36,678 bases of DNA from a virus, in the IMG/VR virus record IMGVR_UViG_3300047276_000087, positions 1 through 36,678 of that record; one strand, written 5' to 3'. Shown here in pieces: positions 2,718 to 36,598 of this stretch (the stretch's first letter is position 1; every line of letters starts with the position of its first letter). Under the pieces are notes generated by a model. The model ran no database searches. It saw only the letters and a program-made list of their open reading frames with translations, and was not told the DNA's origin. Position numbers and translations under genes: made by a program.

Positions 2718-3707
2718 TCAAGCGCTTAGGATTCGCCAAGCGGTTGCGGCACAGAGTGGGACTTGTCCATTACCAATGGCTTTAATTCTGTCCACCCTAG
2801 CGGCCACCCCATCAGCCACTCGACCCACGTCGGGTTCAGTTGTCCAGTCACAGTCTCCGTCCCCATACCATTTAACACCGCGTTTGGTAATGCGTCCAAA
2901 GCCCGACTCTTGCCGTCTTTGCGTATTAAAGATTCCGTCCTGTATCCGCCTTTGCAATCTCGAGTCGTCGGTGTTGGAAACATTTTGTCCAAGTTGAATA
3001 CTGCCGCAGTCGAATTGTTCTGATGATTCTCTCTCCACCTCTTTGTGGCTTTGTGAGCATCTTGGCACGTCGGTGTTGGCCAATTCTTCATGTTGCTCAC
3101 TTGATCTCTTAAATTCGCAGGCTTGCTCCTGCCTGGTCGCGCTTGAGTCGCTTCTTTGTGTAATGCTTTGGCTGATTTTGGAGGCAATTTGTCCATTGTT
3201 GTGGGGGTCGCCCACTTGTCGTCCGACAATCCAAATCCTGTCCCTCTGATGCTTTGCTCCAACGTCTGCCGCTCCCAACACTCCCCATTTCGCATCAAAC
3301 CCCATTGAGGCCAGGTCTCCGAGAACTCGTCCAAGCCCCCTAGAAGTGAGCATTGGTGAGTTTTCCACGAAGACGAATCGGGGTCGTACTTCGTGAATGA
3401 TGCGCGCCATTTGTCCCCACATTCCGCTTCGTTCTCCATCAATTCCTGCGCCTTTTCCTGCGGCTGAGATGTCTTGGCAAGGAAATCCTCCAGATACAAC
3501 ATCAACAATTTGTCGCCAAGGTTTTCCGTCAAAGGTTTGTACGTCATCCCAAATCGGGAAAGGCGGGAGAACTTTGTCATTTTGTCTGGCGCACAGTACG
3601 CTTGCGGGATAGGGTTCCCACTCAACTGCACAGACTGTTCTCCATCCGAGGAGATGTCCCCCAAGTATTCCTCCACCAGCACCTGCGAATAAAGCCAACT
3701 CATTCAT
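2718..3707 (-). CDS. dcm: DNA (cytosine-5) methyltransferase
   Basis: 329 aa from the ATG at 3707, which has a good AAAGGCGG ribosome binding site and overlaps the stop of the upstream small gene. Conserved C5-methyltransferase motifs are in order: motif I (ALFAGAGGGILGG, 5-17), motif IV with catalytic Cys77 (GGFPCQDIS), motif VI (ENSP at 115-118, where ENV is usual), motif VIII (QRDRIWIVG, 154-162), a long target-recognition region, then motifs IX (RVDRI) and X (AIGNGQVP). It transfers methyl from S-adenosylmethionine to cytosine, probably protecting phage DNA from host restriction. No cognate endonuclease is seen nearby. Almost the whole gene also carries a second open frame (2726-3703). 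Confidence 0.92.
   Translation of the reverse strand: MNELALFAGAGGGILGGHLLGWRTVCAVEWEPYPASVLCARQNDKVLPPFPIWDDVQTFDGKPWRQIVDVVSGGFPCQDISAAGKGAGIDGERSGMWGQMARIIHEVRPRFVFVENSPMLTSRGLGRVLGDLASMGFDAKWGVLGAADVGAKHQRDRIWIVGRQVGDPHNNGQIASKISQSITQRSDSSATRQEQACEFKRSSEQHEELANTDVPRCSQSHKEVERESSEQFDCGSIQLGQNVSNTDDSRLQRRIQDGIFNTQRRQESGFGRITKRGVKWYGDGDCDWTTEPDVGRVADGVAARVDRIKAIGNGQVPLCAATAWRILSA
2726..3703 (-). CDS. Long ORF nested in dcm (+1 frame), WPTP-type protein family
   Basis: 325 codons, same strand as dcm, read one base later. Its ATG at 3703 is 4 bases after the dcm ATG, so both share one ribosome binding site; an internal ATG at about residue 53 (MTYKPLTENLG) is another possible start. The translation is not random. 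It has LYLEDFLAKTSQ, SWKTHQCSLL, EFSETWPQWGLMRNGECW, repeated WATPTT/WPTPTC/FPTPTT elements and a C-terminal LNPTWVEWLMGWPLGWTELK. I recognise this set of motifs from phage proteins found at C5-methyltransferase loci. The terminal motif is the frame-shifted reading of dcm motif IX (GRVADGVAARVDRI), so the two proteins constrain each other. Whether the frame is translated cannot be shown here. Confidence 0.45.
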   Translation of the reverse strand: MSWLYSQVLVEEYLGDISSDGEQSVQLSGNPIPQAYCAPDKMTKFSRLSRFGMTYKPLTENLGDKLLMLYLEDFLAKTSQPQEKAQELMENEAECGDKWRASFTKYDPDSSSWKTHQCSLLGGLDEFSETWPQWGLMRNGECWERQTLEQSIRGTGFGLSDDKWATPTTMDKLPPKSAKALHKEATQARPGRSKPANLRDQVSNMKNWPTPTCQDAHKATKRWRENHQNNSTAAVFNLDKMFPTPTTRDCKGGYRTESLIRKDGKSRALDALPNAVLNGMGTETVTGQLNPTWVEWLMGWPLGWTELKPLVMDKSHSVPQPLGES

Positions 3708-3853
3708 ACACCGCCTTTCACGAACACGCATGTTTGTTGATGGACCTTGCCTTTGGAGTCTGTGTAGGTTTCGCCGCATCCTGCCATCCATTCAACTAGG
3801 ATAAGTGCGCCAAGTGCGCCGATGACGATTGCGATGAGTGAGTCTTTAATCAT
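3704..3853 (-). CDS. Small single-pass membrane protein (49 aa)
   Basis: Begins MIKDSLIAIVIGALGALILV, a clear N-terminal membrane segment, followed by EWMAGCGETYTDSKGK and a short Cys-containing tail ending CVFVKGGV. A strong ribosome binding site (AAAAAGGAA) lies 6 bases before the ATG at 3853. Its stop overlaps the dcm start (ATGA). It is the first gene after the promoter at 3898-3926, so it leads the dcm operon. WMAGCGE could mimic a lipobox, but this is weak. Function unknown. Confidence 0.75.
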   Translation of the reverse strand: MIKDSLIAIVIGALGALILVEWMAGCGETYTDSKGKVHQQTCVFVKGGV

Positions 3854-13131: not shown

Positions 13132-13305
13132 TTATTTTGTTAAAAACGTAAATACAAGCCCTGCCATCATTGCGATTAACGCGCCACTGGCTTTAATTAG
13201 GATTTGTTCAAGTCGTTTTAAACGAGCATTAATTTGCTCGTAACGTAAGGCGCAAAGTGCCTCATGACTATTCAGTCGTGCTTCCGTCTCGTTGATTGTC
13301 GCCAT
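13132..13305 (-). CDS. XhlA-like hemolysin/holin accessory protein (57 aa)
   Basis: MATINETEARLNSHEALCAL, a coiled-coil segment (RYEQINARLKRLEQILIK) and one C-terminal membrane helix (ASGALIAMMAGLVFTFLTK). This matches small XhlA-type proteins that attach to the membrane and help holins. It starts inside the 3' end of the glycosyltransferase gene (38-bp overlap). Confidence 0.65.
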   Translation of the reverse strand: MATINETEARLNSHEALCALRYEQINARLKRLEQILIKASGALIAMMAGLVFTFLTK

Positions 13306-14359
13306 TCATAGCCTCTTTGTTTTTCAATAACAATTCGTCATTGGGTGCAAATTTTAAGGCTTCTTCATTGAGTTGTCTTGCTTCGTCTTTTTTACCAAGA
13401 TTCCAAGCGGCAATGGCGGCATACATATATGGTTTTTCGCCCCATGCGGATGGGTCCATTGTGTAAACCAATTCTTTGTTTTTGATGTCCAACGCTTTCA
13501 TTGCGCTGTAATAACTCAAATTCCAGTCCTGTTGCATATATGCAAAAACTGATAGGTCAATCCACGGCTCACGGCTTGTTGGGCATTCAATTGTGGCCAT
13601 GTGATACCACTTGTTTGCCTCATATGTTTGACCAAGATGCTCATAAGACTTGCCTAGCAGACGCATCGCATAACCGCGTTCTGTATTCCATGTTGCGCCT
13701 GGCAATGCCAAGTAACGATTGAGGGCTGTAATAGCCTCTGCCCACCGAGCATAAAACGTCAATTCGCGTGCGTGATAAAACGCATTGCGCGGACAAATTG
13801 GGTCTTCCTTGACTGCCAGTTCAAGCAACGGCATATATTGACCGCGTGACTTTGTGTTGTCTGGCAGGTGTTTGACCAACAACATATCTGTTTGCGCATA
13901 AATCTCTGTAATGCGTCCGTCTGGTCGTGGATATTCATGGACAGGGTGATGCCAGTGGTATCCGTGTCTGTGGTGGATTTTTTCGTACATAAATGAGATA
14001 CCACAGCCCCAGTCAAATTGATAGCGCAGGCGCGTTGTGTTCTCTTGCCAAACTCGTTCAATCTCTGCACGCCACCCGTCCATAAGCACTTCATCTAAAT
14101 CAAGTGAAATGCAAACGTCAAAGTCGCGGGGAATTAGTGCAAGTGCCGTATCACGTGCTTTATCAAACCGCCAAGGATTAATACATATTTCCTGCACAAC
14201 TGCGCCATTTTCAATTGCGCGTGCAACTGTTGCGTCAGTTGACCCTGTGTCTGCTATCAAAACAAGGTCGGCATCCCTGGCTGATTCGCAAAAACGATTT
14301 ACAAATTGTTCCTCGTTTTTGCTGATTGCGTAAACGGCTATCTTTAATTGTCTTGTCAT
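13268..14359 (-). CDS. Family 2 glycosyltransferase with TPR-like C-terminus
   Basis: 363 aa. The GT-A domain has AISKNEEQFV (11-20), IADTGSTDATV (35-45) and the metal-binding LDLDEVLMDG (86-95). Histidine-rich segments (HHRHGYHWHHPVHEYPRPDG) follow. From about residue 195 on, helical repeats resemble tetratricopeptide repeats (AFYHARELTFYARWAEAITA, YAMRLLGKSYEHLGQTYEAN, WNLGKKDEARQLNEEALKFA). It would transfer a sugar from a nucleotide donor to an unknown acceptor: the tail fibre, a virion protein or host envelope are options. Encoded between tail fibre and lysis genes, which favours a late, virion- or surface-directed role. Confidence 0.82.
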   Translation of the reverse strand: MTRQLKIAVYAISKNEEQFVNRFCESARDADLVLIADTGSTDATVARAIENGAVVQEICINPWRFDKARDTALALIPRDFDVCISLDLDEVLMDGWRAEIERVWQENTTRLRYQFDWGCGISFMYEKIHHRHGYHWHHPVHEYPRPDGRITEIYAQTDMLLVKHLPDNTKSRGQYMPLLELAVKEDPICPRNAFYHARELTFYARWAEAITALNRYLALPGATWNTERGYAMRLLGKSYEHLGQTYEANKWYHMATIECPTSREPWIDLSVFAYMQQDWNLSYYSAMKALDIKNKELVYTMDPSAWGEKPYMYAAIAAWNLGKKDEARQLNEEALKFAPNDELLLKNKEAMNGDNQRDGSTTE

Positions 14360-14878: not shown

Positions 14879-17800
14879 TTAAGCGATGCCTGCATCTGCA
14901 AGGCGTTTACGAAGTGATTGAATTTCAGCAACAAGGTCAGCAATGACTTCTGGTGTGCTTGCTTGCATAGATTGGTAAACAGGATTTCCATTTTCATCAA
15001 CAGCATCTTTTTCACCTGATACGCTATGCTCATAAACTTCTTGGAATTTGTGTGCCAAGAAACCACGAGTGCGTAACCCGTTTGAATTCCATGTGTATTC
15101 AACAGGCTCAAGAGCATCAAGTCGCTCACCATGACCAGTTACAGCACCAATAACAGTCTTTAAACGATAGTCAGAAGATGTTGCATATACTAAAACAGCT
15201 CCGTTATAGTAAATTTCACCTCTAGTAGTTCCACCAGAACCAGAAGTAAATCTTGCTAAATATGTGTTTGTTGTATTTGAAGCATTACTAACAAAGATTG
15301 TGGGTTGTGTGTTATCAGTATTTCCAAAAGCAGCCGCAATTTGAGAACCACCAGCAACACCAAACTTTTCTGAACCTACAACTGGGAATGTTGTTGAACC
15401 AATAAAGAAATTACCCGCAGAGGTTATTCTGGCTCGTTCTGAACCGCCTGCTGCAATGGCGACATTGTTTGTGCCAACGCCATAAATGCCGTTTGTAAAA
15501 CTACCACCTCCAGCAAAAAAAATTCCGCTAGTTGAGGCTGTAAAAATATTTCCAACGGCTACTGTCAAATTACCACTTGCATCCAAAGTCATTGCTTGGG
15601 TAAAAGTAATGGCAGTTCCTGCTGTGCCTGATGGGGCTGTGTAAAAACGGAAATCACTTCCACCTTCGCCAACAGAAAATCTAGCCGCAGTAGTCGTAGT
15701 GGCGTATTTCCAGCCTGCGTTGTAATAAGCATTCTTTGTTGTGTGCGCTTCGTTGTTGCCTATTGTTATTCCATAGGCAGATTGAATTGTTGGTAATGAA
15801 GAAGCACTCGGAGTAACTCCCAAGCCTAGATTGCCTGATGTGTCTAGGCGCATACGCTCTATGCCATTGGTAAAGAACGTCATTGGGTAAGCGCCAGCAG
15901 ACCAAAGAACCGCAGAGTAAGCGGTAGTTCCAAAGGTGCTACCCGCACTATTTTCACGACCTATGTAAAAGTCACCACCAGTATTGTTTGCAACATAGTA
16001 AGCAGCGTTTGTTCCTGTGTCAGACTTAACTTGAGCAACCGCAGTTGCAGCCCTAACATCTAACTTATAAGAAGGCGAACTTGTACCAATACCTAACCCT
16101 GTTGAGGTGAGGCGCATACCTTCTGTGCCATCTATGCTAAATGCAATAGGATAACCATTACCAGCACCTAATTTACCAGTCCAAATGTTTACTGTTGAGG
16201 CGGTTGTATCAACATAAAATCTAGCGTTGTAACCATTAGATGCCGCAGAAACAACTGTTAACCCAGAACTAATTCCGTTACCAATAATTTCAGCATTCCC
16301 AATACTTTGTGCCGCACCGCCTACAGCAAAAGTAGTCCCGTTAAAAGTAAGCGCAGAGCCACTTGTCAGAACCTTTGAACCATTGAGATAGGTTACTCCG
16401 TTGGCTGTGCCGTATGACAAGGTTTCGCTTGTAGTAATGCTTGTGTTGGCAGCCGTAAGGGTTGTGCCGTTAAATGTCAGATTGGCAGAACCAGCAAACG
16501 CACCCGCATTGTTGTATTGCACTTGCGTAGTTAGACCGCCAATAGCGGGTGTGCTTCCAGTTGGGCCTGTGCTACCAGTTGGACCAGTTGGTCCGGCAAC
16601 AGTCGAAGCCGCGCCTGTTGGACCAGTTGGACCAGTAATTGATGTGCCATTTGCGCCAGTAGGTCCTGTCGGTCCGACATTTCCTTGTACGCCTTGAATT
16701 CCCTGTACGCCCTGCGGTCCAGTTGGGCCAACAACCGTACTGTCAGCACCCGTTGGACCAGTTGGACCAGTAGGTCCTGCAACAGTTGATGCCGCACCAG
16801 TTGCGCCTGTCGGTCCAGTAGGTCCTACAACCGTGCTATCTGCGCCCGTAGGCCCTGTTGGGCCTGTCGGTCCAACCGCGCCATTTGTGCCGTTTGCGCC
16901 CGTAGGTCCAGTTGGTCCAACTTCGCCCTGTATGCCCTGTATTCCTTGAATTCCCTGTGGGCCTGTAGGTCCAACATTTCCTTGATTTCCTGTAGGTCCT
17001 GTAGGCCCTGTTGGGCCAACATTTCCTTGCGCGCCTGTTGGTCCAACATCGCCTTGACTTCCTGTAGGTCCTGCAACGCCTGTAGGTCCTGTAGGTCCTG
17101 CAACCGTTGAATCAGCACCAGTTGGACCTGTTGGCCCTGTTGCGCCTGTTGGTCCAACAACGCCAACGGATTGCAACACAACAATTAAATTGTGATTGTT
17201 TGCAAAACCAGTTGTACCTGTGCCGCTAGAAGTTACCAAAGTAACGGGACAAGTAACCGATGTGTTAGGTATTGTTGTCGGGTCAGCGGTCAATATCCAT
17301 TTTTGATAGTTGTTTGAATTGCTTGCATCTTGCAAAACAACCGCATCGCCACTTTTTAAGAATGACAAAAACAAATCAACATCGATGCCGTTACTTGTTA
17401 AATGACTAAAAACAAGGTCGGTTGCTGAAATTTGTGTAGCGTTATTCCAATACACATGGCCCGCAGTTGGCGTACCTGATGTTTGGTTTGTATCCGCCTG
17501 GTATTGATAATAAGATGAAGATTGACCATCAGCACCCGTAGCGCCTGTAGGACCTGTTGGCCCTGCTACTGTTGAATCTGCGCCAGTCGGACCAGTCGGA
17601 CCAGATGCACCTGTGGGTCCAGTAATTTCATTGCCTTGCGCACCAGTCGGACCCGTCGGACCAGTAATACTGTTTCCCTGTGTACCAGTGGGTCCGGTCG
17701 GTCCAACAGCGCCAACTTCGCCTTGAATACCTTGTACGCCTTGTGGACCAGTTGGGCCAGCGACAGTTGATGCGCTACCTTGCGCACCCGTTGGTCCAGT

Positions 17801-18304
17801 CGGACCTGCCACCGTAGAATCTGCACCTGTGGGTCCAGTTGGTCCAACGTTGCCCTGACTGCCAGTAGGTCCAACGCTTCCAGTTGCGCCAACATTCCCA
17901 GTAGGTCCAGTTGCGCCAATATTTCCTTGTGCGCCAGTGGGTCCAACTTCTCCCTGTATTCCTTGAATTCCTTGAACGCCCTGTGGTCCGGTGGGTCCAA
18001 TATTTCCAATTCCACCTTGTGAACCAGTGGGTCCAGTTGCGCCTGTTGGTCCGGCAACAGTGGATGGTGAACCCGTTGGACCCGTTGGTCCAGTTACCGA
18101 TGCACCAGTCGGCCCCGTTGGTCCTTGGACCGTACTAGGCGCACCAGTTGGGCCTGTTGGACCAGTTGGACCGCTACCCTGGGGACCCGTTGGACCTGTC
18201 GCGCCACTGATTGCTCTATCAACCCGCAAGTCAATGCGTGGCTGTGGCGTTACCTGTAAATTTACATTGTTGCCGTCAATGACATTGACTTTAATGTTAC
18301 TCAT
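14879..18304 (-). CDS. Collagen-like tail fibre with C-terminal S74 chaperone
   Basis: 1141 aa. After a short N-terminal tail-binding part (about 1-28), Gly-Pro-Thr triplets form two collagen-like blocks at about residues 28-260 and 380-583, split by a globular insert of about 120 residues. A beta-rich region with peptides of the type found in trimeric fibres follows ([23 protein letters not shown]). Residues from about 1043 to the end are a Peptidase_S74 intramolecular chaperone ([26 protein letters not shown], a final coiled coil). The Ser before Asp is the expected self-cleavage point after trimerisation. It is the likely host-receptor fibre. The start overlaps the previous stop by 4 bp. 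Confidence 0.9.
16550..17160 (-). repeat. Collagen-coding tandem repeat block 2
   Basis: Degenerate 9-base units coding for Gly-Pro-Thr or Gly-Xaa-Gln triplets in the tail fibre gene (GGTCCAGTTGG-like on the plus strand). Such arrays expand and contract easily, so length may vary between isolates or in assembly. Confidence 0.8.
17525..18200 (-). repeat. Collagen-coding tandem repeat block 1
   Basis: Same type of 9-base degenerate repeats as block 2, coding for the first collagen-like stalk of the fibre. Several longer segments, such as the one coding for [19 protein letters not shown], occur in both blocks, suggesting internal duplication. Confidence 0.8.
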
Positions 18305-18872: not shown

Positions 18873-21800
18873 TCAGATTTTGGGAATCTGTTTTTTTAAT
18901 TCTTCAACTTGCGCTGACAGTTCTTGAATGGCCTTGGTCAGTACCGCAATGTATGAGGGATAATGAATAGTTTTAAAACCTTTTTCTTCACCAACTTGCC
19001 AATCTTTTTCAAAATAAACCAAAGATGAATCATCGCCAATCAAGGTTTCAACTTCATCGGCAATAAATCCATAACCCTTTTGATGTCTTGGGTCCGCTTT
19101 TAGTTTGTAAGAAACGGGGCGCAATTGTTTAACAAAAGCCAAACCCAAATCACTATCGGCAATTTCCTCTTTAAGACGAATATCCGATGGACTAGTTGTT
19201 TGCACTCCAAAAGTAACAGTATTTCCTGAACCAGAAGTGCCCACATAAGCACCGGCAATACCGGTAGATGATGAGCCTAAAAGATTGATTCCTGAGCCTG
19301 CGGCGTTTGCTGTTCCTGAATTTGTCGGAAAAATACGCGCCCATGATGAAGCAACTAATCCATCCATTCGAGCAGTGTCGTAGGCTTGTCCTGTTGTTGA
19401 CAGTGGCGTATAGCCCAAAGCAGTTGTGACAGTTGAACTTGTAATAGATACCGCGCCCCATGTACCGTTACCGCGCATCACATCGGTTACTGTTCCTGTG
19501 GGGATTGGGAAAGTGTAGGCATCCCACTTGAAAGGACCGTTACACCATACGCCTGGTCCGCTTGCGGAAATACCATAAACACCTGCGCCTGTACCGTTTG
19601 ACAAACCAAACACGCCAACACCGGCAGTGCCGTTGCCATAACCTTTTACGCCTACGCCGCTAGTTCCACTTGCGTTGCCTTCAATGCCGGCAAATGGACC
19701 GCTACCAAACACGCCTGTACCACCTGAACCAAACGACACGCCACGGACACCATAAGCATTGTTATCGCCATAGCCATAAACACCCGCAGTTGAAATCGTG
19801 GGGTTATATGGTGCGTTGTCTGCAAATGCAATGATGCCGTATCTTTGAGCGTATGTAACATTGGCTGTGACTGCGGCAGTGCCTGCAATTGTTGTGACTG
19901 CACCATTGAACTTGGCCGAGCCAGTAATTTCAATGTTACTTGCGCCAATCAAGTTGCCCCTAAAAATACCGTTGTTAAAAAATACGTCACCAGTGCTTTG
20001 CTGAATGTAATAGCCAAGCGTTCCGTATGTTGCAGGATTGCCGTATGTAGGAGGTGTTGAGCCGTTCCAGTTGTCAGAGCGAATGTCTTGGAAAATGCTT
20101 GCGGCTACGGGTCCGGTCCATGCCGTACTATTTGCAGGCACGCTGTTTACTGTGACGCTGTTGCTGTTGTATTGGCCTTGGATGTACCACATGACTTGAC
20201 CAACAGAAACAGTAGGCGCAGTCAAAGACCATCCTGTTGGGGCCGTTGCGCCGCTTGTTGGCGTTGTGAATGTTGGAGCCGCACTTGATTGGCTTTGGAC
20301 TTTGTAGGCAGTTATAAAACTGATGCCAGCCGTTCCTGCTGTGCCAGTAGGCGCCCAAACAAATGCAGAACTGTTTGTGCTTTTTTGTGATGAAGCAATT
20401 TCATTGCCGACGGTATAAGTAAAGTAGTAAGTGCCGGCAGGCAATACTTGATTGGCAAATGTGTATGTTGTGCCATTAGCCACTGGTACATTGTTTGGCG
20501 ATGTGGCTGTGTTAAGAGCCTTATAGGAGAGCGGGTCTGCCGGTGTTGTTGTGTAGTACAACGTGCCAAATGTCACGCGGCCTGTTGTTGGAATTGAGAC
20601 TTGCACATCAAAACTAGGCACTGCATCCGATGGGCGTGATGCCGTAACTGTAGGTGCGCTTAATGCTGAAAAATAAACAGGCGATGCCAAATTGCTGTTG
20701 GGCGCAGGTGTAAATTGCGTAATGTTTGCATCGTCATAAACCTGTGCGTTGTACTCATTAAGTTCCAATCGGGCGCCTAAACTGCCATCAGGCAAGGACG
20801 CTTCGTTCACTTTCATGACTCGGAACAGTTTGGCGTTCCATCCATAGTCGCTATTTGTGACGCTCACCACATTGCCTGCATCGACTTGGATGCCGTAGTA
20901 CGTTGTGTTAAACGAAACAATCAAGTCCTCACGGGCTTGTTCTAGCAATCGGTTGGCCAAGTATTGCGCCTGGACAGAATCGTTTACCAAGTCATAAGTG
21001 ATTGAGTATTTGTTGACCGGCTCATTAGGGTACAGCAGGCCGCTAGGTGTTTGCAGGTTTACAAATGAAGCCTGGTCACGGTTTGACTTAAATGGGAATC
21101 GGGCTTCGACTTGATTGATTGACGATGTAATATCTGTCGCACTCAGCCGGATGTCGCCAATGATGTTGTTGTCAGTGAATGCATAAGCGGCTGTTTCTGA
21201 CTTGTTAATCACCACCGACCATTGGCCCAATGCCGCGCTGTATGTCATCCAAGAATCACAAGCCGACATGATGCGGTCAATGTTTGACAGCACTGTTTGG
21301 CCTGCGTCTAGCACGCCGTTGATTCGATATCGTGCCTGCGTGACGGGTGAGCCGCCTCCGGCAGGTGTGTAGGTAATCAATGCGTCTGAATATGTATTCA
21401 GCGTTGCCACGCAGATTGTGTCAACAGATGATGGGGGAATCGCGCCACCATAGGCTGTGTTTGTGATGTAGTCCAACCATACGTCACCAGGCTTGGCCAC
21501 GCTTGCGCCGTTGGGGTAATGGCTGACGTGAAACGTGATTGGGTTTAATGATGTAGTGTCTGCATCGCGGTTATAGACAAGTTTGACAATGGCAAAAGCC
21601 AAGTTGTTCATTTGCCTGTTGCTACTGGGCCATCTTTGTGCGCTTGCAATGTCTACGCCGCCCATCACGGTGCTTGGTGCAGATGCGCCGTTTGCAGATG
21701 TAATCACGCCTGCATTGGATGATGTGTACAGGTTAATATAAAGATTGCCACTAATCTTTGTGTCCACATTGCCGGCTTCATCGGTCAGGCTTATAACTTT

Positions 21801-22205
21801 GGTGCGGTCTGTGGAGTCAAATGTAATCAAACGGTCGCCATAATACATTTCGGCGGTGTCAAAGTTAAACACGCCTGCCGCAGTTCCTAGTGTTGAATTT
21901 GCTTGGCTAATGCTTGAGATTGCCAAGACGTAATACATTGTCTTTTGGTCAGTCGTCAGCACCGCATCCACAAATGTGCCGCCCATGTAGGCATCGCCGT
22001 ACACCACTGGGATTGCGTTTACTGCGCTTGGGGGCACTTGCTGACGCACACCCATGTCTTGCTGAGTCTCGGGGTTTTCGGCAAAGATGCGGGTCACCAC
22101 TTGCGACAGGGCAAAACTGACGGCAAAGGTTGCCGCTGTGACAGATGTGAAAATTCCCGCTTCTACAAGCGAAGCCGCCGCCGCCGCAATAAGTGTACTG
22201 ACCAT
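18873..22205 (-). CDS. Tail tip / host-specificity protein (J-like) with S74 chaperone
   Basis: 1110 aa. A hydrophobic Ala-rich N-terminus (STLIAAAAASLVEAGIF) is followed by VPPSAVNAIPVVYGDAYMGG and a large domain of the lambda J / tail-hub type (RWPSSNRQMNNLAFAIVKLV, KPGDVWLDYITNTAYGG, ARYRINGVLDAGQTVLSNID, SCDSWMTYSAALGQW). Fibronectin-like parts come next, then beta repeats, and from about residue 1003 an S74 domain (SPSDIRLKEEIADSD, KGYGFIADEVETLIG, a coiled-coil end). It forms the end of the tail and contacts the host. An S74 domain on a J-like protein, with another on the neighbouring fibre, gives two self-cleaving chaperones in one tail. Confidence 0.85.
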   Translation of the reverse strand: MVSTLIAAAAASLVEAGIFTSVTAATFAVSFALSQVVTRIFAENPETQQDMGVRQQVPPSAVNAIPVVYGDAYMGGTFVDAVLTTDQKTMYYVLAISSISQANSTLGTAAGVFNFDTAEMYYGDRLITFDSTDRTKVISLTDEAGNVDTKISGNLYINLYTSSNAGVITSANGASAPSTVMGGVDIASAQRWPSSNRQMNNLAFAIVKLVYNRDADTTSLNPITFHVSHYPNGASVAKPGDVWLDYITNTAYGGAIPPSSVDTICVATLNTYSDALITYTPAGGGSPVTQARYRINGVLDAGQTVLSNIDRIMSACDSWMTYSAALGQWSVVINKSETAAYAFTDNNIIGDIRLSATDITSSINQVEARFPFKSNRDQASFVNLQTPSGLLYPNEPVNKYSITYDLVNDSVQAQYLANRLLEQAREDLIVSFNTTYYGIQVDAGNVVSVTNSDYGWNAKLFRVMKVNEASLPDGSLGARLELNEYNAQVYDDANITQFTPAPNSNLASPVYFSALSAPTVTASRPSDAVPSFDVQVSIPTTGRVTFGTLYYTTTPADPLSYKALNTATSPNNVPVANGTTYTFANQVLPAGTYYFTYTVGNEIASSQKSTNSSAFVWAPTGTAGTAGISFITAYKVQSQSSAAPTFTTPTSGATAPTGWSLTAPTVSVGQVMWYIQGQYNSNSVTVNSVPANSTAWTGPVAASIFQDIRSDNWNGSTPPTYGNPATYGTLGYYIQQSTGDVFFNNGIFRGNLIGASNIEITGSAKFNGAVTTIAGTAAVTANVTYAQRYGIIAFADNAPYNPTISTAGVYGYGDNNAYGVRGVSFGSGGTGVFGSGPFAGIEGNASGTSGVGVKGYGNGTAGVGVFGLSNGTGAGVYGISASGPGVWCNGPFKWDAYTFPIPTGTVTDVMRGNGTWGAVSITSSTVTTALGYTPLSTTGQAYDTARMDGLVASSWARIFPTNSGTANAAGSGINLLGSSSTGIAGAYVGTSGSGNTVTFGVQTTSPSDIRLKEEIADSDLGLAFVKQLRPVSYKLKADPRHQKGYGFIADEVETLIGDDSSLVYFEKDWQVGEEKGFKTIHYPSYIAVLTKAIQELSAQVEELKKQIPKI

Positions 22206-28974: not shown

Positions 28975-29637
28975 TTACATCACCAGTGGTTTGTAAGGAC
29001 GAAGCAAGGCGGCAACACCAAACGGCACTTCATGCAGTCTGCCGTCAGTCGTGTTTGACCTGTTGTTATACAGGTGTGTCAACAGCATCAGCGCCGCTTG
29101 TTTAATCACAGGGTATGTGGATAAAAAAGCAGAGTTCTGGGTGTAGGTGACAACGATTGGATTGGCTACAGTCTGATTCAACGTGTTTGGAATAGTGTTG
29201 AGAATGACACGATTCCCCGTTGGGTCGTATAAGTAGTTGCTTGAGGCAATCAACACTGGGACTGTATTTGAGGTCGAGTAAAACTCCACCGCGTCAATCG
29301 TCACGCCGACTTTGTTGTTAGCGTTTACCGCCACCTCGGGCAAGTCCAGAAACACCGAAGTGTTGTACAGGCCGAAGTTTGTGTAGTAGACCTTGTAAGT
29401 CGTTGGATAGATTGCCGCACCAATATAGTCTTCAATGGCCATGCGTGTGGCCAGTTCAAGTGACTGCAAATATGAATCTTGACTCTCGTCTTGAAACAAA
29501 TTCAACTGTTGCGTGATTTCATCCAAGGTCAACCATGGCGTAACTACGTCACGGTCAACTTGCTCGAATTTGGCGTAGTTGTACGGATTCCGTTGGTCGG
29601 AATAAAAAGGCGCGAGTGTTTGGTTCTCAACTGCCAT
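28975..29637 (-). CDS. Head-tail connector, gp6-like
   Basis: 220 aa. PWLTLDEITQQLNLFQDESQ (motif of gp6-like connectors), YLQSLELATRMAIEDYIGAA, a long beta insertion, and a C-terminal helix (YPVIKQAALMLLTHLYNNRS followed by a terminal LLRPYKPLVM). Gp6 proteins form a ring under the portal. Gene order (capsid, gp6, closure, terminator) agrees. The HLYNNR and LLxPYK ends are distinctive. Confidence 0.85.
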   Translation of the reverse strand: MAVENQTLAPFYSDQRNPYNYAKFEQVDRDVVTPWLTLDEITQQLNLFQDESQDSYLQSLELATRMAIEDYIGAAIYPTTYKVYYTNFGLYNTSVFLDLPEVAVNANNKVGVTIDAVEFYSTSNTVPVLIASSNYLYDPTGNRVILNTIPNTLNQTVANPIVVTYTQNSAFLSTYPVIKQAALMLLTHLYNNRSNTTDGRLHEVPFGVAALLRPYKPLVM

Positions 29638-29647
29638 TTTTTACCCC

Positions 29648-30664
29648 TTAAGCCGCGCTTGCACGTACACCGGCAAATGGGTCGCGGACAGTACTTGCTA
29701 CACGCTTCTCTGCATACAGTGTCACAAAGCCTGGGGCTGTCTGTTCAAACACTTGTACGGTCATTTCCTCGACATCAGCAATAGTCAAGAAGCGGTCCCA
29801 GTTTGCCAAGTAAATTGGGTAGTCTGTGGACAGGTAAGAGTTAGGAATGACGGGCCATCCAAAGATTGAACCGACTGCGCCGCCTTCGCCTGGCTCACCC
29901 AACTCCAAGAACAATGGCAAGCCTTGGCTGTCTTTCAACTGACGCAAGGTTTGAATCATTGCGGGAGTCATGTGCCATGCGGTTGTGGGCAATGCCCAGT
30001 ACTGTGCGGGCAATGAATTGGCAATGTTGGTGATTTTGTTATAGGTCGGTGTTACGCCACCCAAGGATGTTGTCACCAAGGTGTGGATGCCGTTTGTAAT
30101 GGCTGTACCGCTTGTACCGTAGGCCGCAGAGCCACTCAGGTATGTATCCAAGCCACGCAAGCCGTATGTGCCGCCTGTGGTGGTTGTGGTTGAGCCTGAT
30201 TGGTCATTGTTCGTGGCCATGGAAGCGCCTTCCTGTTGGCTGAACTCTAAAGTAAGGTCAGTTAACAGGGCTTCTTTCAAACCGTTGATATCGTCCATCG
30301 CGGCGATACGGATTGGCAGTTGGGCGTTGATGATTCGTGTTGGCATAACCCAGTAGGCGGTCGCTGTGTTGGGCGAGCCGGAGTCGGGCGTTGCATTTGG
30401 GTTCCAAGGGTTTGCGCTTGTCGCGTTACCGGTCTTGGCCACAAATTGAATTGCAGAAGTATTAGGGGCTTTGATGTTGCGTGAACCCATGCGGAACGGG
30501 TTGGCATAACGTAGTGTTGAAAAAGCATCATCAAAATAAGTGCGACCGCCAATGCCATCGCCAGACCCTGTAAGTGTTGATGCCTCGCGTAGGTCAATCG
30601 TTACCTTGCCGCCTTCAGTAAGGGCTTGCTTGATGCCGTCTAGGATTTTTTGGTTTGCACTCAT
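29648..30664 (-). CDS. Second major capsid protein paralogue (HK97 fold, no delta domain)
   Basis: 338 aa. From residue 26 it aligns by eye with the longer capsid protein upstream: EASTLTGSGDGIGGRT (27-42), MDDINGLKEALLTDLTLEFS, ATNNDQSGSTTTTTGGTYGL, LPAQYWALPTTAWHMTPAMI, FEQTAPGFVTLYAEKRVAST, VRDPFAGVR. It lacks about 80 residues of N-terminal coiled coil (the scaffolding delta domain). The two are clearly tandem duplicates that have diverged. It may fill pentons, mix into hexamers or serve as a decoration-like shell component. AAGGAATT precedes the ATG; a hairpin terminator lies just upstream. Confidence 0.88.
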   Translation of the reverse strand: MSANQKILDGIKQALTEGGKVTIDLREASTLTGSGDGIGGRTYFDDAFSTLRYANPFRMGSRNIKAPNTSAIQFVAKTGNATSANPWNPNATPDSGSPNTATAYWVMPTRIINAQLPIRIAAMDDINGLKEALLTDLTLEFSQQEGASMATNNDQSGSTTTTTGGTYGLRGLDTYLSGSAAYGTSGTAITNGIHTLVTTSLGGVTPTYNKITNIANSLPAQYWALPTTAWHMTPAMIQTLRQLKDSQGLPLFLELGEPGEGGAVGSIFGWPVIPNSYLSTDYPIYLANWDRFLTIADVEEMTVQVFEQTAPGFVTLYAEKRVASTVRDPFAGVRASAA

Positions 30665-30678
30665 TTTGATAATTCCTT

Positions 30679-30713
30679 AAAAATTAAAAGACAGGGAGCC
30701 TAAGCCCCCCGTC
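30679..30713 (-). terminator. Terminator/attenuator between the two capsid genes
   Basis: Minus-strand hairpin with 9-base arms (GACGGGGGG and CTCCCTGTC, two G-T pairs) and a 6-base loop, then TTTTAATTTTT. It lies 15 bases after the first capsid gene and before the ribosome binding site of the second, so it would lower expression of the second copy and all genes downstream. Confidence 0.75.
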
Positions 30714-30727
30714 ATTTTTTTCGCTAA

Positions 30728-32071
30728 TTAAGCGCCTGTCGCTGTGGAGCGATAGCGAATGATTGCGTTGGGGTCGACCACGCTTGAGCAGAGGCGTTTT
30801 TCACCAAAAAATGTGATAAAGCCTGGTTGTGTTTGCTCGTAGCGACGGAGGACCATAGACAATCTGTCTACGATTGTATGACCCCGAGAAAAATCTCCGA
30901 AGTACATTGGGAACAATGAAGTTGTTCCGGCAGAACCACCGGCAGATGTAGGTGCAGAGCAGTACGAGTTAACGTACACATCAAAGCCCAACAATTTACC
31001 GACGATACCGTCATAGACCAATGGAGACATACGCTCGAATACAGGCGTACCGTTGTTGTCAACCAAACCACGGATGCCGGCGAGCATCAAGGGGTTGATA
31101 ACAAAGCAGTTGCTTGTAGACCAGTATTGCTGTGGCAAAGAGTGAATGAATTGAATCAAGTCAATGTATTTCACGTTGTTTGCAGAAGCAAAACCGTTGG
31201 TTGTTGTCTGGTCATAAGTAGCGATGCTGTGCAAGCCATCGGTACTAGCAGTACCAGAAGAACCGAACGCGGCGGCAGAGATAGTGCCACCAGTGTAGGT
31301 TGCATTAGAACCAGGATATGAATTCAAACCGCGCAAGCCTGACGTGCCACCGTATGCAGTGGTAGTTGAGCCGGACTGGTCGTTATTCAAAATCATGCTA
31401 AGGCCTTCACTCTGTGAAAATTCTTGGAGCATGTCGTCAACGACGTTGGCCTCTAAACCATCGATGTCGTCCAAAGCCGCAGTACGGATTGGGAACTGAA
31501 CGTTGATGTCTTGCATATTCAATTGCCAAATAGATGTGGCTTCGGTTGTAGCCGCACCATTGTTTTGAATTGCATAGCCCCAAGCCGCACCTGCGTTGCC
31601 GGTCTTAGCGCGGAACTGATAGGTAGAACCGTCAGTAGCCACGTTACGGGACACGCCGCGCATAGGGTTAAGCAAACGCAGTTTGTGGAACACTGGGTCG
31701 TAGGCTGTACGGCCACCGATGCCTGCGCCAGAGCCTGTCAATGTTGAGGCTTCGGTCAAGTAGGCTTGGTGTTGTTCTTCAGATTCCCACAACTTCAGTT
31801 CTGTGTGAACGCGGTTGTTGCCTTTTGCGAAACCAGCGAGTTGCTCTTTCACACGGCGGTTCACATCACCACGCAAAGTTTTTGCAGGTGGGCGAATGAT
31901 TTCAGGGACGTTGATTGCAGATACTTTGGCTTCCAAAGCGGCAAACTTTTCAGTCAACTCGGCTTTAGCAGTTTCCACAGTAGTTGCGACTTCGGCTTTC
32001 ACCGCTTCAATTTTGGATTCGTTAGACACGGCAATCGCGTCAACTTTTTCCAGGACTTTATCCATAGACAT
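30728..32071 (-). CDS. Major capsid protein with N-terminal delta domain (HK97 fold)
   Basis: 447 aa from the ATG at 32071 (AAAGGAAAT upstream); an extension to 32146 overlaps the protease gene. Residues 1-55 form a coiled coil (KVLEKVDAIAVSNESKIEAV, AELTEKFAALEAKVSAI), the delta scaffolding domain normally removed by the protease. The shell domain begins near 105: EASTLTGSGAGIGGRT, then LDDIDGLEANVVDDMLQEFS, ILNNDQSGSTTTAYGGTSGL, HSLPQQYWSTSNCFVINPLM, RYEQTQPGFITFFGEKRLCS. It builds the icosahedral head. A terminator after the gene fits high expression of this one. Confidence 0.92.
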   Translation of the reverse strand: MSMDKVLEKVDAIAVSNESKIEAVKAEVATTVETAKAELTEKFAALEAKVSAINVPEIIRPPAKTLRGDVNRRVKEQLAGFAKGNNRVHTELKLWESEEQHQAYLTEASTLTGSGAGIGGRTAYDPVFHKLRLLNPMRGVSRNVATDGSTYQFRAKTGNAGAAWGYAIQNNGAATTEATSIWQLNMQDINVQFPIRTAALDDIDGLEANVVDDMLQEFSQSEGLSMILNNDQSGSTTTAYGGTSGLRGLNSYPGSNATYTGGTISAAAFGSSGTASTDGLHSIATYDQTTTNGFASANNVKYIDLIQFIHSLPQQYWSTSNCFVINPLMLAGIRGLVDNNGTPVFERMSPLVYDGIVGKLLGFDVYVNSYCSAPTSAGGSAGTTSLFPMYFGDFSRGHTIVDRLSMVLRRYEQTQPGFITFFGEKRLCSSVVDPNAIIRYRSTATGA

Positions 32072-32084
32072 TTTAAATTTCCTT

Positions 32085-32906
32085 TTAAATGCGTTTTTCA
32101 AGTGCCTTTGCCAACTCGCGTGCTTCAAAAGCGGCAAGCAATGCATCGGCTTCGTTTACCACCGCATCAGACTCACTCTGAGTTGGGGTTACTTCAACGG
32201 GTTTTGGGGCATCACGCTGTTCCAAGACACGTTTGAAGATACTAGATGCGGTGGTCGCATCCTTTTTGTTAAGGCCAGCATCACGCAAAGCCTTTTCCAA
32301 AACTCGTGGATTCACATGGCCTTCAGCATCAAATGCTTCCAGTTTCTGAATCTCTGCATTGGGGTTATTTGGGTACATCACGACAGACACTTCGCGCAAG
32401 CCGCCTTTAATGATTTGGAAGTATGCTTTTTCATAATCGAAATCAGGGTTAGACCACATCGTGCCGTCTGGACCATTCTCAAATGGATTGCCGTCTTCGT
32501 CAACCCAACGGGCTTCCTCGGCATAAGCGCCAACAGAAACGCCGCCAAACATTTTGGGGGATTCTTTGAGGATTTGGTAGAGGTCGTTGCCGCCAACAGT
32601 GTTTGTGTAGAGGCGACCCTTTGCGGTCATGCCTTCATCATCCATCACAAACTCTGTCCACTCACCCATGGGCATGCCAAGGTCGTTGTGGTTAAGGAAC
32701 ATTGGGAGAGGTTTATCACTGCTGTTGAACTCAGTCACCCAGTCCATGAAACCTTCAGGTTGGTAGTTGAACTTTCGTCCGTCTTCCCCGCTTCTTGCGT
32801 TCCAGGTTGTCACTCGGGCTTCCATCATTCCCGATGGATTCTGTGACTCGTTTTCGCTTGCCGCTAGTTGGACTTGCGCTTCGCAAATTAGCGTTAAATT
32901 CTTCAT
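32085..32906 (-). CDS. Prohead maturation protease
   Basis: 273 aa. A U35-type HK97 protease: MPMFLNHND-like segment with His73 (PMFLNHNDLGMPMGEWTEF), catalytic Ser124 (MFGGVSVGAYAEEARWV), and LREVSVVMYPNNPNAEI near 170-185. The C-terminal quarter is a charged helical tail (DAVVNEADALLAAFEARELA). It cuts the delta domain during head maturation. The gene sits between portal and capsid, in the standard place. Confidence 0.9.
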   Translation of the reverse strand: MKNLTLICEAQVQLAASENESQNPSGMMEARVTTWNARSGEDGRKFNYQPEGFMDWVTEFNSSDKPLPMFLNHNDLGMPMGEWTEFVMDDEGMTAKGRLYTNTVGGNDLYQILKESPKMFGGVSVGAYAEEARWVDEDGNPFENGPDGTMWSNPDFDYEKAYFQIIKGGLREVSVVMYPNNPNAEIQKLEAFDAEGHVNPRVLEKALRDAGLNKKDATTASSIFKRVLEQRDAPKPVEVTPTQSESDAVVNEADALLAAFEARELAKALEKRI

Positions 32907-33036
32907 TTATCACCCCATTGTGGATAGATTGATTGTCGTCTCTTATCTTGTGGGGCTTCTCTATTGTGGCGAGTGTAACATCACTTGACTTTATTTGTGA
33001 AGTCAAATGTGCAAGCATTTTTTTCAAATGATTCAT
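32755..33036 (-). CDS. Doubtful small ORF between portal and protease genes
   Basis: 93 codons; the ATG overlaps the portal stop (TAATG). The first 43 codons fill the 130-bp gap (MNHLKKMLAHLTSQIKSSDV, TLATIEKPHKIRDDNQS), and the rest overlaps the protease gene in another frame with a basic, repetitive product. It could encode a short leader peptide or nothing. No family recognised. Confidence 0.25.
   Translation of the reverse strand: MNHLKKMLAHLTSQIKSSDVTLATIEKPHKIRDDNQSIHNGVINEEFNANLRSASPTSGKRKRVTESIGNDGSPSDNLERKKRGRRTKVQLPT
32985..33006. promoter_or_regulatory. Inverted repeat upstream of the protease gene
   Basis: TTGACTT and AAGTCAA arms around an 8-base loop in the portal-protease gap. 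No T-run follows on the minus strand. It may be an mRNA processing or stability element; no convincing -10 box goes with TTGACT. Confidence 0.35.
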
Positions 33037-34430
33037 TAGGTTGTGCCTATGTTCATTTTTCGCTTCTGTCCACCACCGCCGCCGCCCGTGTCTTGAGGAG
33101 ACGTTCCCTTGAGAGGCTCATTGGATGAGCCACCAAATTGTAATTCATCGCCGCCTTCAATGGTTGCCATGTTCAAATACTGACGGGCTTCGTTGGGAGT
33201 CATGATGCCAGATTTGACTGCCGCTGTCACAAAGTTCATTTGGTCAAGCGGGGCGCCCTTCAAGAAATCCTTGGTATCAAAGCGCACGCACAGGTTGGGG
33301 TAGCCTTTGAACAGGTGCTGTTTCAACTTCTGCTCAAGGCTAATCACCGTTGGGTACATCACGGTTTTGTAGAACTCATCCAACATGGTCTGAGTGTTAT
33401 TATATTTTTGGTCAGCAATGCCAAGCATCGCAGGAGGTACACCAAACAAGCCGCAGATGCGCTTCATGGTTTGTGTCTTCAAGTTCGCCGCATCAGCATC
33501 CTGCAAGTTGAGCATGCTGATTGATTCATAGGTCATGCCTTGGTCAAGCAACATGCCTTGGCCGGACTTGGAAGGGTCTGTTGCCCGACTGCCGGTCATT
33601 TGATTCCATGTTTCTTTAATCCGCGCCGCAATCTCTTTGTACTTTGCGTCAGGAATTACTTGGTCGGTCTTGAAAATGCCAGACGGTTTAGCACCGTTCT
33701 GCATAATAAAGTTGGCGTAGATGTCGATGTCTTGGTCCAATGCAATCAACTCTGTGGCCAAGATGCCCTTGTTGAAACCGGACGAGCCTTGCCATGCCGC
33801 TTCCTTAATGTGCATCACTTCGTGCGCATCTAGGGGCGTGTCTTTGCTGAAACCATAGGAAGGCGAACTCAGCACGTAGGAAGGGTAGTTGCCTTTGGTC
33901 AGTTTGACCGTAATCAGTGTGGCATCCAAGTTGAACATTTCAATTGGAGTCTGCACTGGGTCCTTTTGGTCTTTTCGCCACCACAGGGTGAACGACTCAC
34001 CGGCAAGGTCTTGCCACATCATCCACTGATACCAAAACTCATATTGACTTTGGAAGTTATTGGGCGATTGAAGCAGGTCCAAGACTTGTTTGGCCTTGGC
34101 TTTGTCGCGTGCGCCAACATTGGGGTCCATCACCGCATCGGTAAATGAGCCGTCTTTGTTTTTGGACATGATGGAGATGCCGCACTGGGACAATGCGCGA
34201 GCCTTCACGCCAACGCATCCCATGACCGTGGAGTTGCGGGTCAAAGCCGACATGTCCAGTACGCGACCGGCTGTCGTGGTGCTTGATGTCGTTACATACA
34301 GTAATTGCTGTGAGGGCTGTTGTTTGTTCTGCCCCATGATGACTTGGTTGCCCAATTGCAGTTGGCCAAGCACAGCATTCGACTCGTTTTGAACGCCTTT
34401 TTTTCTGCTGAAAACATCCAAAATGCCCAT
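33036..34430 (-). CDS. Portal protein (HK97 family)
   Basis: 464 aa. STVMGCVGVKARALSQCGIS (stem-adjacent helix), YEFWYQWMMWQDLAGESFTL, EVMHIKEAAW near 205-214, GILATELIALDQDIDIYANF, LLDQGMTYESISMLNLQDAD, and the wing/crown motif CGLFGVPPAMLGIADQKYNN (about 325-345). The C-terminus is Gly-rich and basic. The dodecameric portal is the DNA gate at one head vertex and docks the terminase encoded just upstream. Confidence 0.93.
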   Translation of the reverse strand: MGILDVFSRKKGVQNESNAVLGQLQLGNQVIMGQNKQQPSQQLLYVTTSSTTTAGRVLDMSALTRNSTVMGCVGVKARALSQCGISIMSKNKDGSFTDAVMDPNVGARDKAKAKQVLDLLQSPNNFQSQYEFWYQWMMWQDLAGESFTLWWRKDQKDPVQTPIEMFNLDATLITVKLTKGNYPSYVLSSPSYGFSKDTPLDAHEVMHIKEAAWQGSSGFNKGILATELIALDQDIDIYANFIMQNGAKPSGIFKTDQVIPDAKYKEIAARIKETWNQMTGSRATDPSKSGQGMLLDQGMTYESISMLNLQDADAANLKTQTMKRICGLFGVPPAMLGIADQKYNNTQTMLDEFYKTVMYPTVISLEQKLKQHLFKGYPNLCVRFDTKDFLKGAPLDQMNFVTAAVKSGIMTPNEARQYLNMATIEGGDELQFGGSSNEPLKGTSPQDTGGGGGGQKRKMNIGTT

Positions 34431-34460: not shown

Positions 34461-36131
34461 TCAAAATGAACGAAATCCAAAACTATCGCTGACGAATGGA
34501 TTGTCCAAAGAGCAGTGGGCGGCAATAATCATGGAGATGATGCCGTCAACCTTTGCGGCTTTGTCGGCTTCGTTCTTTCGCACCTTGATGTTGCCGTTGA
34601 CATCGGTGTAGCATTCGCAGTTTCCAAGTTGCCATCCAATAAAAGGATTGCCGTCATGCTTGATTTGTTTGTTCAGAATCAACTTCTCAATGTATTTACT
34701 TGGATTGTTCAGCACTGCCATGCCCTGTCCCACTTTTTTCACGGGCAAGCCGGCATCGTGTAGCCTGGCCACCAGACTGGCGGCGTTATATGCATCATAC
34801 CCAACTTCTTTAACGTTGTATTTTTGACACTGCTGATTGATGATGTAGTCCGATATTTCACGGTCGTCCATCACGTTGCCTTCGGTCAGTTTAAGTATTC
34901 CGCTTTTGATTGCCACTTGAAAAATGTCCAAGTAGTGCTTGGGAATAAAGGTAAGACTTTCCTCGGGGAGAAAGAATTGCCATTCGACTTCATAGTCTAG
35001 TTCCCCGAATCGTTTGAGGGTGCAGACCGAATTCAAGTCGCGGGTTGCCGCCAAGTCGAATCCAATAAACACGGCTTCGGGGTCTTTGCGCGGCTCTACT
35101 ATGATTGCCTTGGGGTCGTCCCAGTGTGCGCGGTCAAGCCATGCGGCGTTTGCCGATACCCATACGTTTAGGGTTTTGCACAGGAATTCGTTGAGGGCGG
35201 CAGGCTTATGCTTGGCTTCCTCGGCCCTGTTTGCAATGGCATCCTCGTAGACCGAGATTCCATGCATCGGGTTGGCCTTGGCCCAGTTCACGGGGTCGCG
35301 CCAGTCGTCTCCCAAGTCTAGGCCGTACAGCAGGCCAAACCATCGGGGGTTGTCAGTTGCCTCGCCACGAAGCATCGACTGATACATGGACAAGTCCTCA
35401 TAAAACTTTGTGTCCTTCGTGAACGAGGCGGTCGTAATATACACTCTCAGCGGGTTTTGTCTAGCCACCATACCCGAGTGCAGAACCTCAATGCTGTTGC
35501 GGTCCACAATCTGCGCGGCCTCATCCACCACCACTGCCGATGGGTTTTTGCCGTCACCCGTCTTTTTGGTGTCGCGGCTCAGTGCCTTGAACATGGACTG
35601 CGAGTCGCCTCGTTTGCCAATCGTGTATTTGGTCGGAGTGAACAGTTCTGCCAGTTCCTTGGGCATGCATTCCACAAAGCCTTTGGCCGCATCAAACACA
35701 ATGGTCGCCTGCTCTCTGTTTGTGGCCAAGGTAAACACCTCGGGGCCGGCTTCGCCAAATAGCAGTTCGTATAGCGTCAGCACCGCAGTTAGTGTGGACT
35801 TACCTGCTTTCCTCGGAATGAACAGAATCACGTCTGTCACCATTCGCTTGGAAATATCCTTCTTACTTCTAAACCCGTATATGGCGCATATCAGCAGGAT
35901 TTGGAATGGCTCAAGCACCACCGCCTGCCCTGCCTGGGGGCCTTTCGTGTGTTTCAGCGTGGCGGCAAATTGCAGGACATGGTCAGGCGCCCGACTGTCG
36001 AATACCCATTCCCATTCCTTGTTTTCAAGTTGATTGATGAATCGTTGGCAAGCCAGTCTCACATCGTTGCAGACGTTTATCTCGCCCTTTGCCACCGCAT
36101 GGGCGTATGCCACCCCGTCTTGGTAGTTCAT
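34461..36131 (-). CDS. terL: Terminase large subunit
   Basis: 556 aa. ATPase domain: Walker A PRKAGKST at 106-113, Walker B SAVVVDEAA near 195-205, coupling motif VYITTASFT near 230. Nuclease domain: IGFDLAATRDLNSVC near 350 (first catalytic Asp), KEVGYDAYNAASLV near 440 and DGIISMIIAA near the end. This is the HK97-type (Terminase_1) family, which usually makes cohesive ends. It pumps DNA through the portal. Overlaps the small subunit gene by 4 bp. Confidence 0.95.
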   Translation of the reverse strand: MNYQDGVAYAHAVAKGEINVCNDVRLACQRFINQLENKEWEWVFDSRAPDHVLQFAATLKHTKGPQAGQAVVLEPFQILLICAIYGFRSKKDISKRMVTDVILFIPRKAGKSTLTAVLTLYELLFGEAGPEVFTLATNREQATIVFDAAKGFVECMPKELAELFTPTKYTIGKRGDSQSMFKALSRDTKKTGDGKNPSAVVVDEAAQIVDRNSIEVLHSGMVARQNPLRVYITTASFTKDTKFYEDLSMYQSMLRGEATDNPRWFGLLYGLDLGDDWRDPVNWAKANPMHGISVYEDAIANRAEEAKHKPAALNEFLCKTLNVWVSANAAWLDRAHWDDPKAIIVEPRKDPEAVFIGFDLAATRDLNSVCTLKRFGELDYEVEWQFFLPEESLTFIPKHYLDIFQVAIKSGILKLTEGNVMDDREISDYIINQQCQKYNVKEVGYDAYNAASLVARLHDAGLPVKKVGQGMAVLNNPSKYIEKLILNKQIKHDGNPFIGWQLGNCECYTDVNGNIKVRKNEADKAAKVDGIISMIIAAHCSLDNPFVSDSFGFRSF

Positions 36132-36598
36132 CCTGCAAACGGTCCTTTGAGGAATTGCGCCACTGGGCTGTCGTCTTCAGTCTTTCCTGCTGACAACCGG
36201 CTTCTAGGAGTTAACCCTAGTTCGTTCATCAGTTGGATGATTAGCGTCATGGTCTTGTTTCGCACCGACAGGTAGGGGTTGGGCCCAACCGTCTTGCCAT
36301 CGTTGAACTTGGTCACGATGCCGCCCACCTTGATGGCTGTGGTGCATTTGACGTAGGTGTCGATGTGGTCGGCCAGCATCGCCAAGGTGTGTTTGTCTTG
36401 GTCATTCCCAATGCCGTAGACGTTGTACAAGAATTCCGAGGTTTCCTCAATGAATCTCAACTTGTCCCAGGCTTCGGGGTTGTCCACCCACTCGGCTTTT
36501 GGGATTCTCTTTTTTAAGTTGTCCGGAAGCATCTTGGGCATTCCCCTGCGTGGGGTCGTCCCGTCAACTAAGTGAAGTTCTGGTGGTTTTTGGTTCAT
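36128..36598 (-). CDS. terS: Terminase small subunit (P27 family)
   Basis: 156 aa. GMPKMLPDNLKKRIPKAEWV at the N-terminus, AMLADHIDTYVKCTTAIKVG in the centre and VGPNPYLSVRNKTMTLIIQL / MNELGLTPRSRLS near the end, a signature of P27-like small subunits. It recognises the packaging site, usually next to its own gene; here only 80 bp remain upstream before the window ends. Confidence 0.88.
   Translation of the reverse strand: MNQKPPELHLVDGTTPRRGMPKMLPDNLKKRIPKAEWVDNPEAWDKLRFIEETSEFLYNVYGIGNDQDKHTLAMLADHIDTYVKCTTAIKVGGIVTKFNDGKTVGPNPYLSVRNKTMTLIIQLMNELGLTPRSRLSAGKTEDDSPVAQFLKGPFAG

Follow-up and report, generated by a model that had tools for sequence, protein, structure and literature searches.

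Why would a small tailed phage encode two major capsid proteins side by side? According to a 2026 review, a single capsid gene serves for both hexons and pentons in phages of ~40 kb such as HK97 and P22, and distinct penton proteins are rare, large genomes like that of T4 affording them more easily (PMC13185644). The window, meaning here the whole 36,678-base virus record (IMGVR_UViG_3300047276_000087), carries at its right end a minus-strand run of head genes that includes two HK97-fold capsid genes in tandem, MCP1 and MCP2. The explanation we favour, and consider somewhat better than an even bet, is that they form an old hexon/penton pair in which MCP1 makes the hexamers and brings the scaffold and MCP2 is a dedicated penton protein.

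Two capsid paralogues in one head-gene run

All on the minus strand, the genes follow one another as small terminase (36128..36598; PHROG_83, 2.1e-15), large terminase (34461..36131; PF20441, PF03354), portal (33036..34430; PF04860, 2.6e-60), a Peptidase_S78 prohead protease expected to cut off the delta domain (32085..32906; PF04586, 2.4e-08; PHROG_3244), MCP1 (30728..32071, 447 aa), MCP2 (29648..30664, 338 aa), a head-tail adaptor immediately 3' of MCP2 (28975..29637; PF05135; PHROG_40), and connector and tail genes. The MCP1 start at 32071 is conserved and has its own ribosome-binding sequence; the longest open reading frame would begin at 32146.

Both proteins exceed the curated cut-off of 24.2 bits for PF05065 Phage_capsid (MCP1, 100.5 bits, 1.5e-28; MCP2, 70.3 bits, 2.3e-19), and both match the PHROG_10 major head protein. 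They are 42% identical over 339 aligned columns (BLASTP, E = 3e-71), and across the family MCP1-MCP2 pairs share ~42-51% identity. Confidence in the predicted structures is moderate (mean pLDDT 69.8 for MCP1 and 79.3 for MCP2), and the top Foldseek matches of both are the capsids of RcGTA (6tb9) and HK97 (prob 1.00). Model and family alignment agree that MCP2 retains all HK97-fold elements, namely the N-arm, E-loop, spine helix, P-hairpin and A-domain. A sequence-only reading had proposed tandem HK97-fold capsid paralogues at 29,648 to 32,071 with a delta domain in one of them; BLASTP, Pfam, PHROG and the models confirm this, and the four shared motifs that it named all lie within the BLASTP alignment.

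The pair is constant among relatives

The family consists of widespread small tailed phages of about 37-39 kb from freshwater and marine sources. Viral contigs and prokaryote genomes were searched with MCP1 and MCP2, as single sequences and as profiles, and with one divergent MCP2. This gave at least 284 family loci including the isolate P19250A, most searches contributing their best 80 matches; loci were recruited via one of the two capsid genes, and a distant single-copy lineage could be missed. Several loci share one contig, so the independent number is below the locus count; the first 241 loci contain 146 distinct protein pairs.

Both genes were readable in 258 sampled loci, and in every one MCP1 precedes MCP2 (258/258). 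In the remaining loci a contig end cuts one gene or the frame of one gene is broken, and a single small genome-contig locus has the tail end of MCP1 only. Apparent single-capsid loci were rejected on these grounds. One observation named beforehand as speaking against the pair was that close relatives had lost one of the copies or that it had decayed in them; no sampled locus long enough for both genes lacks either. Pseudomonas phage D14E and its kin, whose capsid protein is a distant relative, served for comparison; a single capsid gene is present in 81 of 81 of their loci.

The pair is also retained in six distinct pairs in which a gene lies between MCP1 and MCP2. The inserted genes include an HNH endonuclease (L232, L233) and a small protein of ~103 aa whose family was not recognised (L203, L205-L207). 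In L225 the intervening open reading frame looks GIY-YIG-like by eye only, and a Pfam search of it gave no match, leaving that reading unsupported. The apparently long gaps between the capsid genes of L131 and L134 proved to be an artefact of start choice that arises from an insert in the MCP2 E-loop, described below.

An old split under purifying selection

A maximum-likelihood tree built from 104 proteins places the 49 MCP2 representatives together in one clade, apart from every MCP1 (SH-aLRT 97, stem of 1.32 changes per column), from which it follows that the duplication is old. MCP1 makes up one side of a weakly supported branch (46), and the outgroup attaches by long branches; the position of the root is therefore uncertain, while the old split between the two families is not in doubt. 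Between the window and its relatives dN/dS is 0.06-0.16 for MCP1 and 0.02-0.15 for MCP2, values that are rough because dS is near or beyond saturation and that indicate purifying selection on both genes.

Tandem paralogues often stem from recent duplication, and MCP2 might itself be such a duplicate, recent or already decaying and lacking a role of its own. We find this scarcely credible, since the MCP2s form a single old clade, are universal in the sample, have low dN/dS and stay paired with MCP1 despite insertions between the genes; survey, tree and dN/dS together led us to reject it.

A delta domain in one protein only

MCP1 residues 1-88 (31808..32071, minus strand) make up a delta domain that is mostly helical in the model, with a long helix at 3-52 and a second at 66-83. 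By model and family alignment it is absent from MCP2 save for its last short helix. The sequence-only reading had put the N-terminal deficit of MCP2 at about 80 residues, and the family alignment bears this out: MCP2 is without MCP1 residues 1-67 and 84-96, a gap that includes the long helix, and its short N-terminal helix is the counterpart of MCP1 68-83. No cleavage site could be mapped in MCP2 from the family alignment, and the short N-terminal helix is retained there. The asymmetry is constant over 242 complete MCP1s (435-462 aa) and 257 complete MCP2s (337-413 aa), the delta domain being present in 0/257 of the latter; the longest MCP2s, up to 413 aa, owe their length to an internal insert of 72 aa. 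In HK97 gp5 the delta domain serves as scaffold, and on this basis we assign a putative scaffold role to that of MCP1. With a predicted N-terminal helical delta domain and an S78 protease gene upstream, MCP1 fits the self-scaffolding HK97 type, and open reading frames, Pfam and PHROG revealed no separate scaffold gene in the head-gene run.

Since two complete HK97 folds are present, MCP2 could be imagined to make, or compete for, an alternative particle of another size or T number, as do phage satellites with capsid proteins. We regard this as very improbable, as MCP2 lacks a scaffold domain, the head-gene run has no recognised separate scaffold gene to replace it, and MCP2 is universal in the sampled family.

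Within the mature fold, the N-arm is the part most similar between MCP1 and MCP2 (consensus identity 0.69 in the family alignment). Divergence among the aligned parts peaks in the second half of the A-domain, where consensus identity is 0.32 and 12 aa are deleted: a loop at MCP1 residues 372-383 (30923..30958, minus strand; family alignment) is missing in MCP2. In HK97-fold capsids the A-domain points to the capsomer centre. The divergence and the missing loop would be compatible with a different capsomer symmetry for MCP2, although they do not prove it.

The same region bears on the suggestion that MCP2 mixes with MCP1 inside hexamers, which would thin out the delta domains beneath the shell, instead of forming pentons. 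A common fold and about 42-51% identity make such mixing plausible, and a subunit without a scaffold would need MCP1 neighbours. However, the two proteins are least alike in the later half of the A-domain, with its 12-aa loop, which is the part expected to touch neighbours of the same capsomer. Together with the exchange of MCP2 alleles discussed below, this makes mixed hexamers rather unlikely in our view, albeit the strongest of the rival readings.

A conserved hairpin and weaker codon bias

Between the two genes lies a hairpin resembling an intrinsic terminator (30690..30713, minus strand), with 10 pairs, 7 of them G-C; on the minus strand, from 30713 to 30690, it reads GACGGGGGGCTTAGGCTCCCTGTC and is followed by TTTTAATTTTT. 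Under a strict definition, a hairpin with a T-run occurs in 94% of 113 different family intergenic regions and in 5.5% of dinucleotide shuffles. A looser definition finds it in 112/112 regions, the shuffle control applying to the strict definition only. The stem sequences vary widely across the family and the hairpin persists. Terminator-like sites in the scanned stretch are not above chance (23 found versus 25.6 expected), so that the argument stands on the conservation of this one site. The single capsid gene of D14E is also trailed by a strong hairpin, but without a T-run.

MCP1 has the strongest codon bias (ENC 41.4), followed by the tail tube gene (42.3) and MCP2 (45.5), most other head genes lying at 47-55, and the bias of MCP1 exceeds that of MCP2 in 82/106 genomes. 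Taken together, the hairpin and the weaker codon bias suggest that MCP2 is probably made in smaller amounts. The hairpin may act as an attenuator that lowers MCP2 copy number, and both signs would be compatible with MCP2 being a virion protein that is expressed well yet present in fewer copies than MCP1. A terminator 3' of a capsid gene would, on the other hand, lower all downstream genes and not MCP2 alone, which, like the hairpin of D14E, counts against a penton model.

Few copies would suffice if MCP2 were confined to the surroundings of the portal vertex, or if it were no capsomer of its own but an accessory or cement protein of the shell, and its gene stands directly upstream of that for the head-tail adaptor. 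Such a role is improbable nonetheless, given that MCP2 keeps every HK97-fold element, which would be superfluous for a cement protein, and that its codon bias exceeds that of most neighbours.

A proposed division into hexons and pentons

The conserved pair, the scaffold in MCP1 only and the conserved hairpin between the genes suggest that MCP2 is a lower-copy, specialised part of the shell, most likely its corners. In the hexon/penton division that we favour, abundant MCP1 would form the hexamers and its delta domain would scaffold the procapsid, after which the S78 protease would cut that domain away. MCP2 would be held to a minor product by the terminator-like hairpin just upstream, and without the scaffold helix it would be expected to be unable to build shells alone. 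Its pentamers would occupy the eleven vertices that lack the portal. T=7 is the usual head at about this genome size, and such a head would contain about 55 MCP2 to 360 MCP1.

The sequence-only reading had suggested that the duplicate may be specialised for pentons, or may co-assemble with the help of the first protein's scaffold. The old single origin, the low dN/dS and the signs of reduced expression support this in part, being in keeping with a minor, specialised shell protein dependent on the MCP1 delta domain. The dependence of MCP2 on the MCP1 scaffold, its location at pentons, the T=7 head and with it the copy ratio are what we infer. The hexon/penton division is better supported than mixed hexamers, a role at the portal vertex or as an accessory protein, or alternative particles.

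MCP2 is exchanged among close relatives

Compared with the close relatives L082, L083 and L085, the window is 92-93% identical in the portal, 95% in MCP1, 90% in the adaptor and 90% in the tail tube, but only 63-64% in MCP2. Over the flanking head genes of these three loci identity ranges from 81 to 95%, against 63-64% for MCP2. DNA identity to L082 and L084 is lowered inside the MCP2 gene, over roughly 30506-29756. By these alignments, MCP2 has been swapped as a single gene among close relatives. Across 106 genomes MCP2 distances track those of MCP1 best (0.43), the correlation between portal and adaptor being higher (0.68).

That 64%-identical MCP2 alleles interchange beside a near-identical MCP1 is easier to picture if MCP2 forms pentamers by itself than if it mixes at random into hexamers. 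The hexon/penton division also meets a difficulty here, as exchange beside a 95%-identical MCP1 is unexpected if the hexon-penton contact is tightly co-adapted.

In 22 MCP2s (L131, L134, L247, L257 and 18 other loci) and in no MCP1, the 72-aa insert follows residue 83 (30416..30418, minus strand), at the tip of the E-loop as placed by the model. Searches with it against Pfam, annotated phages and PDB sequences gave no match. We tentatively suggest that MCP2 might be an exchangeable vertex module, a penton swapped singly whose E-loop tip bears an extra domain in one sub-group, which would make the vertices rather than the faces the part of the capsid surface that varies; we hold this to be possible and no likelier than that.

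Comparison with known systems

Hexon/penton pairs are already known, and the capsid pair described here is notable for the small size of the genome. In T4, gp23 forms the hexons and gp24 the eleven pentameric vertices, with 55 copies against 960 of gp23 (PMC3012670, PMC5694885). Both systems have two conserved paralogous HK97-fold shell proteins, of which the second is minor in T4 and would be minor here. T4 differs in its several times larger genome, prolate head, separate scaffold proteins and cleaved propeptides on both gp23 and gp24, whereas in this family MCP1 alone has the scaffold fused to it. Kinship with gp23/gp24 was not found by sequence: profiles run against PDB sequences matched the GTA capsid and one cf-PICI major head protein but did not match gp24.

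The capsid protein of the Rhodobacter capsulatus GTA (Rcc01687), which forms both hexamers and pentamers, is the closest solved structure by sequence to MCP1 and MCP2. By fold, GTA and HK97 gp5 rank at the top, and the order portal-protease-capsid is common to both and to the window. HK97 also uses one capsid protein for hexamers and pentamers (PMC13185644).

By gene order and hairpin, the closest arrangement found is that of mycobacteriophage PRodriguez, where portal and protease are followed by a large capsid protein, a strong hairpin and a smaller capsid protein. In this unrelated phage of the same layout, the hairpin between the annotated capsid hexamer and pentamer genes (L368:13248-13351) has -54.8 kcal/mol. 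PRodriguez differs in its 70-kb genome and in its protein families (PHROG_777 and PHROG_779, against PHROG_10 for MCP1 and MCP2); its two capsid proteins had no detectable sequence similarity when compared with each other, and their hexamer and pentamer names are annotation only. An annotated hexamer/pentamer pair also occurs in Gordonia cluster DR (PMC9413003).

Within the family, Methylophilaceae phage P19250A has both genes (57.6% identity for MCP1 and 54.8% for MCP2), the second annotated as 'hypothetical', and the OM43 phage Venkman is a relative of P19250A (PMC8163748). No published report of the MCP1/MCP2 double capsid was found in the search, which covered openly available papers. If the penton role is true, a common aquatic family of ~37-39 kb with a constant paralogue pair would be an exception to the one-gene pattern. 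With P19250A and Venkman as cultured members, the family is also a clean system in which to test the action of a delta domain carried by only some subunits.

Elsewhere in the window, a glycosyltransferase-like gene with TPR repeats (13268-14359; PHROG_13126) adjoins two long tail-fibre-like genes (14879-18304 and 18873-22205), the first of which matches collagen-like tail proteins. The left part of the genome carries a DNA methyltransferase gene (2718-3791; PHROG_363).
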